A DNA stretch of 64,000 bases from positions 1,178,001 through 1,242,000 of the forward strand of contig NZ_JADPQF010000001.1 in NCBI RefSeq assembly GCF_015687155.1, written 5' to 3'. The notes under the pieces were generated by a model. That model was not told where the DNA came from. It saw only the letters and a program-made list of their open reading frames with translations, and ran no database searches. A program made the translations under genes and the position numbers. The stretch comes from Aliikangiella sp. G2MR2-5. GTDB lineage: Bacteria; Pseudomonadota; Gammaproteobacteria; Enterobacterales; Kangiellaceae. Positions 3,291-38,394 of the stretch are shown here, one piece after another (positions within the stretch are counted from its first letter, which is position 1; the number at the start of each line of letters is the position of its first letter).

Positions 3291-4999
<1,709 letters not shown>

Positions 5000-5181
5000 A
5001 CTTGGATGATTCGATACTTTTAATTAATTGAAATCTAACAACAATCATATAATATGCTAAGAGCTGATATTCTTGGGGGGAGCCGCAGAGATTAAGTATC
5101 TCACGGCAGGAATTAACTTTTTAATTCTTGAAGTTGATTTTCGCGTAAGGCTCAAAACGACAATTTGTTCAGGATAAACAA

Positions 5182-6486
5182 ATGAAATATACAACTTTTC
5201 CAAATGCCGACCATTACCAGATTCCTCGAGGATTATTTATAGGGGCATGGAAGGTATGGTTTAAGCGATTTGCCGACCATGAATCATGGCGAGATGGTGT
5301 TATGCCAGCTGCGCCAAGTGAGCTTAAGCTATATCAATTAATTGAAGAAAAACAAAGATTCAGTTTAGAAGTGGTAAACCGATTGATGGTGCCATGGTCT
5401 TATCGAGATTCTAGCCAGGTTTGCTCAGCATTTTTAAAATTGAACAGAGATGAAGTTCATGAGGTGAATGATGATCAAGGTGAATCTTTCGTCAGGCTTA
5501 CTGACAGAGCACTAGACTATTGGGATAGTTTAACCTTCCTTGAACAAGATATGTTTACAGCGTACGCCGAAGCCAGGATTCAGGCTGACATTGAAACACC
5601 TAGCCCTCAACCAGTAGTTATTGATGATCATGGGTTGGAGCTAATTGGTGAGGATATATACCCACCAATAGTCCCAGAAAAGGATGCCTCTGACCTTGAT
5701 TTTGCCCGAGCAATGGTTGCCTGGATAGAAGAAGATCCGTTTACGCCAATGTACCAAAGGCAGGCCGTTGGCGAAGCTGTCAGTAGCTGGCATGACAGGT
5801 TGGAAAGGTTTTTCTGGCCAAAACCAAGAAACGGTTTGATGCAGGTATCTCACACAGCGGACGCTTTGATGTATCGTTCTGAGCTTTTGGCTCGCGGAAT
5901 AGAGAGGGGAGTCGAATGGAACCAGGAGGATCGAGAACTTGCCGTTAAAACTGCAAATGAAATATTCCTGCAAGCGGGTGTACCTCAACGTGATGTGACC
6001 TGGGAGAATGTTTATGCAGTGATGAAATCAGCGATTCAAGCTGATGAAAACTCAACAGCAAAAATGAATAGCGGCTGGAGTCTCCTGGCATCATTCGCTT
6101 CTCATTGGTTAAATAATTGTGAAGATCGCTTGCCTATGGTTTGTTGGAACAGCAGGGTATCTAATGCAGTTATCTCCAGGCTTGATTTCTTATTGGTCGA
6201 AGCGGGTTATGCAACGCTGGAAGACCGTTTTACCAACATAGGAACTGTTCCAGGCGTTGGGGGGACCAGACCTCGAGAAACAACCCTGAAGTGGCCAGAT
6301 GGCTATCGCAGCTGGAAAACTCAGATCGCAGCGTCAAGATTTGTCAATTTGATGGTTGAAGTGTTAAATAACGAGAGAAACGGAGATGGCAGTCTAAAAT
6401 ATGAGCCAATGCCGATACCAACTGGTGGCCGCGCTCCATGGTCAATACAGGGTGTACAGCTTGTACTATTTTCAGACGGTTATTGA
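5182..6486 (+). CDS. Uncharacterised 434-residue protein
   Basis: I do not recognise this protein with confidence. It appears soluble: no signal peptide or membrane segment is seen. The N-terminal part (about 1-130) is rich in Trp and charged residues; the middle (about 170-300) looks helical. The most distinctive part is C-terminal: CWNSRVSNAVISRLDFLLVEAG, then a glycine hairpin VPGVGGTRPRE, and a conserved-looking end PWSIQGVQLVLFSDGY. The RVS and VPGVGG elements faintly recall helix-hairpin-helix or OGG-fold glycosylase-like proteins sometimes found near defence genes, but I see no catalytic Lys/Asp arrangement that proves it. It is a lone gene with its own spacer and a terminator; there is no mobile-element context. 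Confidence 0.75.
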   Translation: MKYTTFPNADHYQIPRGLFIGAWKVWFKRFADHESWRDGVMPAAPSELKLYQLIEEKQRFSLEVVNRLMVPWSYRDSSQVCSAFLKLNRDEVHEVNDDQGESFVRLTDRALDYWDSLTFLEQDMFTAYAEARIQADIETPSPQPVVIDDHGLELIGEDIYPPIVPEKDASDLDFARAMVAWIEEDPFTPMYQRQAVGEAVSSWHDRLERFFWPKPRNGLMQVSHTADALMYRSELLARGIERGVEWNQEDRELAVKTANEIFLQAGVPQRDVTWENVYAVMKSAIQADENSTAKMNSGWSLLASFASHWLNNCEDRLPMVCWNSRVSNAVISRLDFLLVEAGYATLEDRFTNIGTVPGVGGTRPRETTLKWPDGYRSWKTQIAASRFVNLMVEVLNNERNGDGSLKYEPMPIPTGGRAPWSIQGVQLVLFSDGY

Positions 6487-29772: not shown

Positions 29773-31041
29773 ATGCACAAGCTGCTCATTTTCGTATACG
29801 CTTTATTTTCCTTTACAGCAGTAGCTGAGGAAGCCGGTTTGGAGTCTTTAATCGAAAATTTTTACCAAGCAAATGATGTAAAAGAATCTCTGAATATAGC
29901 AGACTCAATCATCGCTGAAGCTCACGGGTTAGAGCAAATTTATCCGCTGTTGAGAGCTTACAAACCCAAAGCTTTTCCTATTTCAAAGCACTTTTATAAA
30001 AAGGCCAGCAAACGGAATGACGGATTGAGCTATCTTTACGCAATTGAAATACCTGAAAATTACGATGCAAAAAAAAACTACCCGGTAGTTTTTCTACTCC
30101 ATGGCGGCGTTAGACGTCAAAAGTGGAAAATGAGTCAAACCTGGTGGCCCCGTGACGTATCTAATGGATTGGATGACTATATAAAAATTTACCCGACAGG
30201 GTGGCACAAGTCTTTGTGGTGGTCTCCTCAGCAGGTAGACAATATTCTGGAGATTCTCGCCGAAGTCAAAAGAAGCTACAACGTTGATACAAGTCGGGTT
30301 TATTTAAGCGGCTTATCTGATGGCGCGTCGGGAAGTTATTTTATCGCATCCAGATTACCTGACTTGTTTGCAGCTGTGGCGCCGGTAATTGGTTCACCGT
30401 CTGTCTTAGCTGACAAAAAAAACGGAATTAGTGAAGAGACATATCCGGTAAACCTGACTAACACGCCATTTTTATCTATTTCAGCGGACAAGGATACGCT
30501 TTATAAACCAAAAGACGTTGAACCCTACATCAGGTACTTTCAACATATTGGAGTAAATATCCAGTTCGTGGTAACCAGCGGGTATCATAATTTCAAACCT
30601 TTCAAGAATGAGCTAAATAGAATACTCGAATTTTTTAGTAAAAATATTAGACAAACAACCGAAAAACATCTGGTGTTGCAAGTCGACGAAAGTTTTAACA
30701 GAAAGCGCTCAGGATGGGTAGTTGTGAACTCTTTGTCACAGAAAGAAAAAGGTAGTCCCGTAAAAGGTCTTTTAGAAAGTAAGAAAAAAAGTGGCTTGAT
30801 CGAAGTAAGAGCAGAAAATAATGATATTTATACTTACACAAAAGGGATCGGCTCGTTCACGCTTCTTTTTTCAAAAGAGCAGTTTAATTTTGATAAACCC
30901 GTTCGTATTTTCCACAATGATCACTTGATAGTTTCCAGAAATCTAACCCCGGATATCAAGACGCTTCTAAACTGGGCTGCTAAAGATAAAGACCCTCAAA
31001 GGCTATTTGTTGCACAAATGGAGTTTAAAGTGAGCAGTTAG
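29773..31041 (+). CDS. Secreted alpha/beta-hydrolase (esterase-like) with C-terminal extension
   Basis: A 422-residue protein with a Sec signal peptide (residues 1-18, likely cut after AVA). After a helical lead comes an alpha/beta-hydrolase domain of the esterase/prolyl-oligopeptidase-like type: oxyanion turn LLHGG (108-112), nucleophile elbow GLSDGA with Ser 182, an acidic residue in SADKD (Asp 239 or 241) and catalytic His 272 in GYHNF. A further beta-rich region of about 120 residues follows (about 300-422). The substrate is unknown; location should be periplasm or outside. It stands alone between sucCD and the chorismate mutase operon. Confidence 0.8.
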   Translation: MHKLLIFVYALFSFTAVAEEAGLESLIENFYQANDVKESLNIADSIIAEAHGLEQIYPLLRAYKPKAFPISKHFYKKASKRNDGLSYLYAIEIPENYDAKKNYPVVFLLHGGVRRQKWKMSQTWWPRDVSNGLDDYIKIYPTGWHKSLWWSPQQVDNILEILAEVKRSYNVDTSRVYLSGLSDGASGSYFIASRLPDLFAAVAPVIGSPSVLADKKNGISEETYPVNLTNTPFLSISADKDTLYKPKDVEPYIRYFQHIGVNIQFVVTSGYHNFKPFKNELNRILEFFSKNIRQTTEKHLVLQVDESFNRKRSGWVVVNSLSQKEKGSPVKGLLESKKKSGLIEVRAENNDIYTYTKGIGSFTLLFSKEQFNFDKPVRIFHNDHLIVSRNLTPDIKTLLNWAAKDKDPQRLFVAQMEFKVSS

Positions 31042-31072: not shown

Positions 31073-31086
31073 TTGATTTATATCAA
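31073..31086 (+). promoter_or_regulatory. Perfect FNR/Anr box upstream of the chorismate mutase-ubiUV operon
   Basis: TTGAT-TTAT-ATCAA matches the FNR consensus at all ten defined positions. A TACAAT -10 lies at 31109-31114, putting the predicted start at about 31121 and the box centre at -41.5. This is the class II activator position for FNR. Confidence 0.8.
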
Positions 31087-31108
31087 CTTGTATTCCGGGT
31101 TCAATTTC

Positions 31109-31114
31109 TACAAT
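31109..31114 (+). promoter_or_regulatory. -10 element of the ubiUV operon promoter
   Basis: TACAAT, one mismatch from consensus, with no recognisable -35 hexamer, as expected when an activator covers that region. Confidence 0.65.
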
Positions 31115-31141: not shown

Positions 31142-31444
31142 ATGACTGATTTAAACACCTCAAAACAATCTCTAGCTCTAGTCCGCGAAGAGATAGACAA
31201 AATTGACCAGGCTTTGATTGACTTGTTGCGACAGCGGTCAGAGTGTGTTGAAAAAATTGCAAAAATAAAGTGTGAAGGCAAACTATCGATATACGATAGT
31301 GAAAGAGAAAATAAGATTCTGGAAGAGAAAACACAGAATAATCCCACACTTTATCAGTCAGTTGATTTGGCTAATATTTTCCACGCGATTTTGCGAGCAG
31401 GTTTAAACCAACAGTTACTATACCGATCTGAACATGAGGATTAG
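31142..31444 (+). CDS. Chorismate mutase (AroQ type)
   Basis: A 100-residue all-helical AroQ-class chorismate mutase. It converts chorismate to prephenate for phenylalanine and tyrosine. The pattern VREEIDKIDQALIDLLRQRSECVEKIAKIK holds the first-helix Arg and the Lys of the active site, and a later ERENKIL helix supplies the remaining residues. No prephenate dehydratase or dehydrogenase domain is attached and no signal peptide is present, so it is a monofunctional cytosolic enzyme. Its TAG ends two bases before ubiU, so it is the first gene of an operon with ubiUV. The short AroQ fold is also used by isochorismate-pyruvate lyases; a mutase is more likely. Confidence 0.82.
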   Translation: MTDLNTSKQSLALVREEIDKIDQALIDLLRQRSECVEKIAKIKCEGKLSIYDSERENKILEEKTQNNPTLYQSVDLANIFHAILRAGLNQQLLYRSEHED

Positions 31445-31446
31445 CT

Positions 31447-32436
31447 GTGGAGCTGGTGTGTCCGGCAGGTAACTATCAATCCCTGATTAAAGCAGTCGAT
31501 AATGGCGCAAACGCCGTCTATATTGGCTTAAAAAACGAAACCAATGCTCGTCATTTTGCGGGCCTGAACTTCACTGAAGCACAGATCTCACAGGCGATAG
31601 ATTATGCCCATCAAAAAGGCAGTAAGGTCTATTGCGCGATCAATACCTATCCCAGAGAAAACTCATGGCATAAGTGGGCCTATTCGGTTGACCAGGCAAT
31701 GGACCTGGGCATAGATACACTAATCGTCGCAGACATAGGCGTGATGGATTACATTCGCTCGCGTTCAGACAGTTTCCCTATCCATTTATCAGTCCAGGCA
31801 TCAGCCACCAACCCTGAAAGCCTGAACTTTTATCATCGGCAATTCGCTATTCGTCGGGCAGTTCTACCCAGAGTCCTGTCTCTGGCTCAAGTATCAAAGC
31901 TTGCACAAACTGCGCCGGTTGAAATCGAAGTGTTCGGCTTTGGCAGTCTTTGTATTATGGCTGAAGGACGTTGCTATTTATCCTCCTATATGACTGGCGA
32001 ATCCCCAAACACGCAAGGAGTTTGCTCTCCGGCATCCCACGTTCGATGGGAAGACAGAGGCGATGTGTTAGAGTCACGTTTGAACGGTCTTTTGATTGAT
32101 CGCTTTGGCGAAAATGAAAACGCTGGTTACCCAACCTTATGTAAAGGTCGTTTTGACGTCGGAGGAAAAATTCAGCACGCACTGGAAGAACCTACCAGCC
32201 TGAACACCATGGACATTCTCCCTGAACTCTACCAGGCCAATGTTGCGGCGATTAAAGTGGAAGGACGACAAAGAAGTCCCGCCTACGTCGCATCGGTCAC
32301 CAAAGCCTGGCGCCAGGCAATTGATCAGGTAGTCAAACAAAACCAGAAGGTAGGGCAAGAAACTATCCACAAGCTCGCCGAGTTTGCCGAAGGAAAACAA
32401 ACAACCATTGGCGCTTACGAGCGAAGCTGGCAATAG
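31447..32436 (+). CDS. ubiU: UbiU, U32-family protein of oxygen-independent ubiquinone synthesis
   Basis: A 329-residue U32-family [4Fe-4S] protein. With UbiV it hydroxylates ubiquinone precursors without oxygen, using prephenate as hydroxyl donor in E. coli. Four cluster cysteines are visible at 169, 176, 193 and 232, the positions I recall for E. coli UbiU. The start MELVCPAGN and the ARHFAGLNF motif are diagnostic. It begins with GTG two bases after the chorismate mutase stop and lies 38 bases before ubiV. The perfect FNR box upstream implies anaerobic induction. Confidence 0.93.
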   Translation: MELVCPAGNYQSLIKAVDNGANAVYIGLKNETNARHFAGLNFTEAQISQAIDYAHQKGSKVYCAINTYPRENSWHKWAYSVDQAMDLGIDTLIVADIGVMDYIRSRSDSFPIHLSVQASATNPESLNFYHRQFAIRRAVLPRVLSLAQVSKLAQTAPVEIEVFGFGSLCIMAEGRCYLSSYMTGESPNTQGVCSPASHVRWEDRGDVLESRLNGLLIDRFGENENAGYPTLCKGRFDVGGKIQHALEEPTSLNTMDILPELYQANVAAIKVEGRQRSPAYVASVTKAWRQAIDQVVKQNQKVGQETIHKLAEFAEGKQTTIGAYERSWQ

Positions 32437-32474: not shown

Positions 32475-33374
32475 ATGAAACTATCATTAGCAGCCGTTCC
32501 TTACTTTTGGTCAAAAGAAGCCTATTTCGATTTTTATCAAAAAGTCGTAAACTCACCTGTCGACATCGTATATCTAGGTGAAACAGTCTGTTCAAAAAGA
32601 AGAAGTATGAAGCTGGCTGACTGGATTAAAATTGCCGAGGAACTAGTAATTGCGGGCAAAGAAGTTGTGCTTTCGACTATGACCTTACTAGAAGCCGAGT
32701 CGGAATTGAAGTATTTAAGCAACATTTCCAAACAGAAAGATTTCTTAATTGAATCAAACGATATGTCTTCTATTCAGATAGCAAGTGAAAACCAAAATTC
32801 ATTTGTTGCCGGATGTGCGATTAATCTTTATAACAGTCGTACCATGAATCGACTATATAGATTAGGGATGAGGCGTTGGTCGGTACCTGTTGAATTAGGT
32901 AAAGATGATTTAGCCCCTTTAGTTTCAGTAGCAAAGGAAAAGGGCATCGAAGTAGAATATCAGGTTTTTGGACGTATGCCGCTAGCTTATTCAGCGCGTT
33001 GTTTTACAGCCAGACATCACGAGCTTCCTAAAGATGATTGCCAATTTATGTGTAAGGAGTACGAAGATGGAATCTTGGTTAAAACACAGGAAGGTGACAG
33101 CTTTGCTCAGATAAATGGCATTCAAACACAGTCTTCCAAAGTTACCAACCTTATCGATCGTTTAAAAGATCTCAAAGAAACAGGGGTTGATATAGCTCGC
33201 ATTGTTCCTGTCAGAGCAGAAGATACGCTCAAGGTCATTGAGTTATTTGCAAATGTGATCAATGTTCATGATGATGTAAGCGATAAACAGGATCTGGATA
33301 GCCTAACTGGAAACTATGAATACTGTAATGGTTACTGGTTACAAATAGAAGGGATGAAGCTGGTTGCTCCGTAA
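32475..33374 (+). CDS. ubiV: UbiV, U32-family partner of UbiU
   Basis: A 299-residue U32-family [4Fe-4S] protein forming a heterodimer with UbiU in anaerobic ubiquinone hydroxylation. Cluster cysteines appear at 39 (ETVCSKRR), 176, 189 and 193 (RCFTARHHELPKDDCQFMC), with the same Cys-x12-Cys-x3-Cys spacing as E. coli UbiV. It is last in the operon. Confidence 0.92.
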   Translation: MKLSLAAVPYFWSKEAYFDFYQKVVNSPVDIVYLGETVCSKRRSMKLADWIKIAEELVIAGKEVVLSTMTLLEAESELKYLSNISKQKDFLIESNDMSSIQIASENQNSFVAGCAINLYNSRTMNRLYRLGMRRWSVPVELGKDDLAPLVSVAKEKGIEVEYQVFGRMPLAYSARCFTARHHELPKDDCQFMCKEYEDGILVKTQEGDSFAQINGIQTQSSKVTNLIDRLKDLKETGVDIARIVPVRAEDTLKVIELFANVINVHDDVSDKQDLDSLTGNYEYCNGYWLQIEGMKLVAP

Positions 33375-34153
33375 TTTTTTGTCCAATAATTCGAAGAACC
33401 TTATTTACATCAACAATGCTTTAATTAGCTGTTTAGGATTAGACTAAAAGTCTTAAAAAAATAAATCAAGTTTCCGAACTTTTAAGAAGTTTAGATTTAA
33501 GAATAATTGCTGATAGTTTTTTTGTTTAATCTCATCATTTTGTAGAAACGAATATTCAGCTTTACTTGTATATTTTCTTGACCAGAATAATTGTTTCTCT
33601 CATTGGTCATTGGCTATTTCTATATATATGCTTTAAAAAAATGGTCTTCCATAGAAAATATTTTCTGTATTCAATCTCCTAGATAAAGTATCTGAGAGCC
33701 TGCAAAGAAAATCGACATATCCAACAGAAGACGACATTCTCAACAAGAGAACATTAACAGGGAATAGAAAAAAATCTGATGACGAATAATAAGTAGAATA
33801 GAGTTTCGGCTTGGTAGTATTCTTTTACGAAGTAAATAACAGCTGGTATTTTTCTCAGAATGAATACCTTTCGCCCATGAAAAATGTGTCTATTGGATTT
33901 TCTGAGTTACTCCCCCAAAAGCAGAAAAATCCTGTAGTGAGATTTCTTAGAGCTTGAAATTATTTTTGATAATAACCGCATTTGTTGTTATAACTATTTT
34001 TAATAAAAAAGTTCGGCATATCGGGGCTACTACCAGCTCGAGCATTAAGTATTGATTACTTTTGTGATGAAGTTGTCATAATAAAATCACTTTGACTGCT
34101 AGTTATCGCAACTGGAGAAGTTTACAAGTAGAATAAAATCTAGTCGCTACTCT
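33375..34153. other. Long AT-rich spacer after ubiV
   Basis: About 780 bp with no open frame worth reporting, no terminator and no repeat that I can see. It is distinctly AT-rich, and starts an accessory-looking segment that runs to about 36886. Confidence 0.5.
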
Positions 34154-37792: not shown

Positions 37793-38311
37793 CTAGCCTA
37801 AAACTTTACTGTCGTATTTCGCAAGAAGACTAGTTAAAATATCAGGAAGCAAGTCAGGACTAAGATTATCAATCGTATTTTTAACATGGTGGGCGAGTTC
37901 TGTATCTCCACTTATTTTTAGCTTTCTTTGAAAGAAAAGTGTGTCTGGATCAACTTTCTGTTGAATCAATTTGATTGCATTGGAAGTATCAATTGAAAGC
38001 GTTGCATCCGCTGCTTCTTTATCAACTTTCCGGAAAAATGTGCATCGAATTTTTTGCTGACTAGTGGTTAGTCCTATTTGCAGATCTGCATCCAGAATAA
38101 CGATTTTTAAAAGACGATTATCCAGAAAATCAAAATCCCCTTGTGTCAGATTGTCCCTGAGCGCGAAGTTGGCCGCTTGTTCTACTGCGAATCGATTCAG
38201 TCTAGCCGGGGCTGTCAACACAAATTTGCCAATTGCACTGGGTGCTAAAAGTGACTTTAAAATTGATAATGTTTTTTGTTCAATTTTCAATGCAGAAATC
38301 GGCGCGTTCAT
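37793..38311 (-). CDS. ubiT: UbiT, SCP2-domain protein of oxygen-independent ubiquinone synthesis
   Basis: A 172-residue SCP2-domain lipid-binding protein. UbiT binds isoprenoid quinone intermediates and works with UbiU and UbiV when oxygen is absent. The SCP2 core covers about residues 50-160 (FDFLDNRLLKIVI, ADATLSIDTSNAIKLI and KLKISGDTELAHHVKNTID). The start has a weak ribosome-binding site. Its promoter carries an FNR-type box. In E. coli ubiT is divergent from ubiUV; here they lie 4.4 kb apart. Confidence 0.9.
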   Translation of the reverse strand: MNAPISALKIEQKTLSILKSLLAPSAIGKFVLTAPARLNRFAVEQAANFALRDNLTQGDFDFLDNRLLKIVILDADLQIGLTTSQQKIRCTFFRKVDKEAADATLSIDTSNAIKLIQQKVDPDTLFFQRKLKISGDTELAHHVKNTIDNLSPDLLPDILTSLLAKYDSKVLG

Positions 38312-38353: not shown

Positions 38354-38359
38354 ATTATA
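38354..38359 (-). promoter_or_regulatory. -10 element of the ubiT promoter
   Basis: On the minus strand a consensus TATAAT; the predicted start is near 38347, 36 bases before the ubiT ATG. Confidence 0.65.
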
Positions 38360-38380: not shown

Positions 38381-38394
38381 GTGATTTAGATCAA
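38381..38394 (-). promoter_or_regulatory. FNR/Anr box upstream of ubiT
   Basis: On the minus strand TTGAT-CTAA-ATCAC, nine of ten consensus positions. Its centre is about 41 bases upstream of the predicted ubiT start, the class II activator position, the same arrangement as in the ubiUV operon. Confidence 0.75.

Follow-up and report, generated by a model that had tools for sequence, protein, structure and literature searches.

The locus analysed here, from a marine bacterium of the family Kangiellaceae, raises the question of why a gene for a chorismate mutase (CM) should lead an operon whose two further genes, ubiU and ubiV, belong to the oxygen-independent pathway of ubiquinone synthesis. 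The product of chorismate mutase is prephenate. According to a review which cites a study published in PNAS in 2024, prephenate is the oxygen donor of anaerobic ubiquinone hydroxylation, with the qualification, made in the same review, that direct proof of U32 enzymes catalysing this reaction is still to come (PMC11574389). Since prephenate is the reported oxygen donor of UbiUV, a single promoter ahead of the three genes would induce the hydroxylase together with its oxygen source. We put the probability at roughly three in four that the locus is an oxygen-switched class II FNR operon that provides not only the UbiUV hydroxylase but also its prephenate donor, as judged from sequence comparison. 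A pathway that runs short of its oxygen donor would be expected to acquire a CM in its ubiUV operon. The features concerned are compiled in Table 1; “the window” denotes the whole stretch of 64,000 nucleotides that was analysed.

Table 1. Features of the CM-ubiU-ubiV operon and of the ubiT unit (positions refer to the window).
Feature	Position	Strand	Remarks
FNR box TTGATTTATATCAA	31073..31086	+	perfect palindromic consensus; centre 31079.5
-10 hexamer TACAAT	31109..31114	+	22-nt gap to the box; fits class II; start predicted at ~31121
CM (monofunctional AroQ-type, 100 aa)	31142..31444	+	PF01817 (CM_2), 62.6 bits (cut-off 27); presumed to produce prephenate
ubiU	31447..32436	+	GTG start; NF047963, 535.7 bits (cut-off 440)
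ubiV	32475..33374	+	NF047965, 365.8 bits (cut-off 275)
ubiT	37793..38311	-	separate transcription unit ~4.4 kb downstream; NF047962, 106.7 bits (cut-off 46.9); PF02036
ubiT FNR-like box TTGATCTAAATCAC	38381..38394	-	one mismatch
ubiT -10 TATAAT	38354..38359	-	perfect; 21 nt past the ubiT box

The first-pass annotation had described the box as bearing every consensus base and as centred 41.5 bases upstream of the predicted transcription start. Both statements hold, the latter by virtue of the gap between box and TACAAT and on the assumption that transcription starts 7 nt past the -10 hexamer. The promoter thus has a TTGAT-N4-ATCAA-like box near the predicted position -41.5 and a -10 spaced accordingly, as befits class II. 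Within the window the exact motif TTGATNNNNATCAA (TTGATN4ATCAA) occurs a single time, namely as the box of the CM operon, which starts 69 nt before the CM start codon (ATG), while sites with at most one mismatch number 12 against 5.2 expected, a count reached in one of 100 shuffles. The operon promoter is squeezed directly behind an esterase gene (29773-31041), as this gene, whose product is related to PHB depolymerases and looks secreted by eye, ends 31 nt upstream of the box.

The predicted gene order chorismate mutase-ubiU-ubiV is borne out by the profile scores given in Table 1, with intergenic gaps of 2 nt between CM and ubiU and 38 nt between ubiU and ubiV. Together with ubiT, which the first-pass annotation does not list and whose promoter shows the same layout as that of the CM operon (box, then -10), the gene set of the O2-independent ubiquinone pathway is complete, all three ubi genes scoring above the curated cut-offs. 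Downstream of ubiV lies an A+T-rich stretch of 779 nt (33375-34153, 31% G+C) without any open reading frame of at least 80 aa, which is followed by a gene for a family 3 solute-binding protein.

As to the first gene, alignment to E. coli PheA reveals that its product possesses R11, R28, K39, R51 and E52, which we take to be the catalytic residues of that enzyme. Among 11 aligned CMs, PheA included, R11, D18, R28, K39 and R51 (PheA numbering) are invariant, and an equivalent of E52 is missing from two ubi-linked CMs described below (G441 and G527). The protein stays under the cut-off of all 23 CM-type NCBIfam models it matches, the best score being 52.6 bits against a cut-off of 106.35 (TIGR01801); for this reason we assign no subtype name, while the assignment to the Pfam family is unaffected. 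The AroQ fold also includes isochorismate lyases, and a weak match to NF005475 (32 bits, cut-off 126) might be taken to indicate that the protein feeds the quinone ring as an isochorismate lyase or as a stand-in for the chorismate lyase UbiC, rather than acting as a mutase. We consider this extremely improbable given that several CM models outscore the lyase model, that the mutase active-site residues are conserved and that 34 of 37 genomes examined for UbiC encode it, the source genome among them. Its presence there also led us to reject a replacement of UbiC by the CM. The only other CM found in the source genome is part of a 716-aa frame on the minus strand (G000 C1:425587-427734; L353:588-2735), which comprises CM, prephenate dehydratase, ACT-like (just below cut-off) and DAHP synthase regions and is apparently a fusion of the first and the branch steps of the aromatic pathway.

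Conservation in close relatives had been named beforehand as a check on the promoter, and the promoter passes it. UbiU is encoded in 14 of the 37 Kangiellaceae genomes (E up to 1e-60), and in 11 of these 14 a CM gene ends 1 to 8 nt upstream of ubiU; the remaining three are G002, with no CM by ubiU, G004, with its CM on another contig, and G019. Upstream of the CM gene all 11 CM-ubiU loci carry TTGA[TC]N4[AG]TCAA, in five cases as the perfect TTGATN4ATCAA. A -10-like hexamer is located 21 or 22 nt past the box in all 14 box-bearing CM or ubiU promoters of the family that were compared, a set picked for the relaxed box and hence open to bias, although the -10 played no part in box choice. This set comprises the 11 CM-ubiU loci, the CM and the ubiU promoters of G004 (its CM box has a G at the end instead) and the ubiU promoter of G002; the ubiU of G019 and the CM of G005, with no such box near, and more distant loci were left out. 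Besides the boxes chosen, one of which (G001) departs from the strict consensus at two positions, another one-mismatch site in G003 and other two-mismatch sites in G018 were set aside. The hexamer agrees with TATAAT at five of six positions in 13 promoters and at four in the CM promoter of G004. Averaged over the 14 promoters, the best hexamer score amounts to 4.93 out of 6 at gaps of 21-22 nt, compared to 1.8-3.0 at non-overlapping gap pairs and to 3.36 and 4.0 at the overlapping ones. As box and -10 are separated by variable sequence, the spacing is conserved and not merely copied. The metagenome-assembled genome HyVt-500, which was read separately, displays the same arrangement: TTGATACAGATCAA is followed by TATAAT at a gap of 21 nt (counted by hand), and the CM gene ends 2 nt upstream of ubiU. 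In G019, whose UbiU is distant (57% identical), no good box is found near ubiU, the only sites being one with two mismatches at -31 and one with a single mismatch at -629.

A regulator fitting the box is present, as the genome encodes a true FNR (NF008365, 344.6 bits, cut-off 228) which matches solved chains designated “FNR type regulator” at E=1.6e-86 with the Fe-S cysteines aligned. Genome-wide, 27 distinct perfect boxes are found against five for a reversed-pattern control. A perfect box by itself proves little, since 14 of the 27 fall within open frames of at least 100 aa and since only three, namely those of the CM operon and of moaA and one in L189, are accompanied by a hexamer matching at five or more positions at 20-23 nt and by an ORF start within 250 nt. 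Perfect boxes also precede ccoN, moaA and hemA, which fits an FNR regulon. The TTGAT-N4-ATCAA motif is common to FNR and DNR-type regulators, so that the box might be read by another member of the Crp/Fnr family such as the NO-sensing DNR. We regard this as very improbable: of the three Crp-family genes found in the genome only one combines the cysteines with the recognition helix of FNR, whereas the other two encode proteins with a CRP-like helix, as judged by eye. FNR control of the operon, as proposed in the first-pass annotation, is thus supported by the conserved box and spacing, by the true FNR in the genome and by the FNR-controlled ubiTUV systems in the literature. The gene for TrhP, a prephenate-dependent U32 tRNA hydroxylase, is found on the minus strand at G000 C1:1138683-1140017 (L196:10684-12018), about 7 kb from fnr and near mobA and moaA with their perfect FNR boxes.

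How closely the CM is tied to UbiUV can be assessed from genomes in which the genes are arranged differently. In G004, where CM and ubiU reside on separate contigs, the CM gene has a box of its own, TTGATTTATATCAG, which starts 67 nt before the ATG and is nearly the same in sequence and position as that of the window. The genus-mate G005 keeps its CM near sucD (L201, G005 C1, CM frame 4907-5233); neither ubiU nor ubiT was found in searches of this genome, and no box within two mismatches is present in the 1.47 kb upstream of the gene. The CM can therefore have another use, being kept in a genome in which neither of these ubi genes was detected. Elsewhere in the class, ubiT-CM of G207 is divergent from ubiUV with the perfect box TTGATATTTATCAA in between, the hexamers at 22 nt matching at only four of six positions on either side. 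In a family outside the class, UbiU is found in eight of 80 genomes; in four of the eight (G441, G527, G695 and G802) a CM gene lies behind ubiV and overlaps it by 4 nt, and no linked CM occurs in the other four. This family probably belongs to the Alphaproteobacteria, as inferred from the plasmid records listed nearest to its UbiV, which are alphaproteobacterial except for one from Acidithiobacillus. In G441 and G695 ubiU is preceded by ubiT, which scores above the NF047962 cut-off; the same order is seen in G527, where ubiT scores 46.4 bits against the cut-off of 46.9, while the locus of G802 is cut at the position of ubiT. Within 600 nt before ubiT or ubiU of G441, G527 and G695 there is no FNR box within two mismatches.

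Gene number also speaks for a tie between CM and UbiUV. G441, G527 and G695 have three CM genes each, while four genus-mates without ubiU have two each (the genus-mates G861 and G866 were left out of this count). In Kangiella (G026-G036), the CM numbers are 3, 2, 3, 3, 2, 3 and 3 with UbiU and 2, 2, 2, 1, 2 and 1 without; four further genomes lacking UbiU (G010, G014, G017 and G020) have one CM each. A tree of 63 CM domains requires five changes of the label “ubi-linked”, which here took in the unlinked protein of G004 and that of G005 (no ubiU/ubiT) as kin, and none of 500 shuffles came as low. The starred branches of this tree, which is based on few columns and includes several long branches and an unsure placement of G207, force at least two separate changes of linkage label.

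Linkage is nonetheless far from general. In neighbourhood scans around ubiU extending 1.5 kb or 2.5 kb to each side, or up to 4 kb at the named loci considered below, and less at contig ends, a linked CM was found at three of 91 ubiUV places in the class sample (91 of 94 places, leaving out G180 contig 120, G164 and G093; own genome and the doubtful G097 included) and at four of 78 in the phylum sample (78 of 122 places covered; own genome included). Among 80 named loci there are five with linked CM, four of which are genomes already counted. The close relatives G002 and L204 have ubiUV without linked CM as well; taken together with the majority of ubiUV loci, this makes the CM an accessory. 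The CM-like ORF of G097 (L351:5561-6073) is convergent with ubiV, and its match to the CM_2 profile begins only at position 12. No other CM was found in this small genome, and the gene carries a long extension at its C-terminus. Its adjacency to ubiV may be a chance linkage, and we give it no weight in the argument. No annotated CM is present at three plasmid-borne ubiUV loci inspected, of 172 records matched (Mesorhizobium, Acidiphilium and Azospirillum), the CM of G695 has no match in plasmids, and a small ORF overlapping ubiV at a Roseibium plasmid locus shows no CM match. The latter, on the Roseibium aggregatum plasmid NZ_CP045623.1 (L400:4873-5259), encodes an unknown 128-aa protein overlapping the end of ubiV, and the ubiTUV cluster of this plasmid is neighboured by ubiD, ubiX, nnrU, nnrS and nosR-like genes. 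Nine further plasmid hits (Roseibium, Labrenzia) among the 30 listed also have an annotated hypothetical protein at the site of the match.

From these distributions a wider reading emerges, which we hold to be moderately probable: to UbiT, UbiU and UbiV, CM may add an optional fourth member of the pathway that makes ubiquinone anaerobically. It would act there as a dedicated source of prephenate, would have entered ubiTUV loci on several independent occasions, would be under FNR induction in Kangiellaceae and would perhaps hand the donor directly to UbiUV. In mechanistic terms, falling oxygen would cause FNR to bind the class II box and to turn on CM-ubiU-ubiV, ubiT being induced separately by an FNR promoter of its own. 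The stand-alone CM would then convert chorismate to prephenate, which UbiUV would use for the O2-independent hydroxylations of the ring. Being devoid of dehydratase, ACT and DAHP synthase domains, this CM would presumably supply prephenate that is neither subject to feedback nor immediately used for phenylalanine.

The genes could also be neighbours without any functional need, the CM being a housekeeping or spare mutase that is merely co-transcribed with ubiUV. This we consider unlikely. While the absence of a linked CM at most ubiUV loci examined, with ubiUV standing alone in G002, L204 and others, is what such a passenger would lead one to expect, it would hardly have become linked in at least two, perhaps three, separately derived CM groups. 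A functional tie between CM and UbiUV is suggested by four lines of support, namely the FNR box that the CM of G004 carries in spite of being unlinked, the boxless CM of G005 where ubiU and ubiT are likewise not found, the recurrence of linkage in other lineages and the extra CM of the ubiU-bearing genomes G441, G527 and G695 relative to their four genus-mates.

G005 bears on a further explanation, too, according to which the prephenate made by the CM is destined at low oxygen mainly for other users, such as the U32 hydroxylase TrhP or CmoA, and the placement with ubiUV is a matter of regulatory convenience. The source genome does encode TrhP, an enzyme for which prephenate is needed in E. coli (PMC6599085), and the retention of CM in G005 without detectable ubiU or ubiT agrees with such users. 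Yet it is ubiUV or ubiT to which the CM is joined, while trhP is located about 69 kb away in the source genome, and the CM of G005 has no FNR box. Supply of mainly these other users thus appears distinctly unlikely. Dedicated supply of UbiUV, the preferred reading, would in turn be of some consequence. As prephenate is a recent idea as an organic oxygen donor, linkage and co-regulation of a prephenate-making enzyme with UbiUV in separate lineages would constitute independent genomic support for it. With its single small enzyme, the CM-ubiUV operon would moreover lend itself as a natural system to tests of donor supply, feedback and possible channelling.

FNR control of the pathway is the well-supported ordinary case and the new part is the CM as lead gene. 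Such control is to be expected as it has been shown in E. coli, where Fnr governs the ubiUV and ubiT promoters and the sites F1 and F2 are described (Arias-Cartin et al. 2023, PMC10470549), and as FNR motifs have been predicted for 1362 of 1566 ubiTUV sets (ISME J 2024, PMC11707229). A search of the literature, mostly of papers accessible without subscription, yielded no report tying chorismate mutase to ubiUV or UbiU, and neither “chorismate mutase” nor “prephenate” appears in the main text of PMC11707229. The locus shares with the architectures reported there the position of ubiV after ubiU, the FNR motif before the first gene and the separate ubiT (architecture 4). With E. coli it shares the pathway, an FNR-type site ahead of the start of ubiUV and a separate FNR-driven promoter of ubiT. 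It differs in that F1 and F2 are imperfect (TTGATTTAAGGCAG and TTGATTTATACCGC), whereas the box in the window is perfect, and in that the E. coli operon is described, in the portions of PMC10470549 drawn upon here, without a chorismate mutase, the gene that comes first in the window. E. coli copes without a linked CM, having PheA and TyrA. The window CM resembles monofunctional AroQ chorismate mutases in Pfam family, length and catalytic residues, but differs from them in scoring below every matched NCBIfam cut-off and in being located in an anaerobic quinone operon. Finally, UbiUV resemble TrhP and RlhA, which according to PMC6599085 are likewise U32 proteins with a prephenate-requiring hydroxylation; for TrhP of E. 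coli, the same source reports that a PheA variant with CM activity alone restores the reaction. In contrast to TrhP and RlhA, whose prephenate comes from the housekeeping enzymes PheA and TyrA (PMC6599085), UbiUV would, as proposed here, receive it from a dedicated and co-regulated CM.
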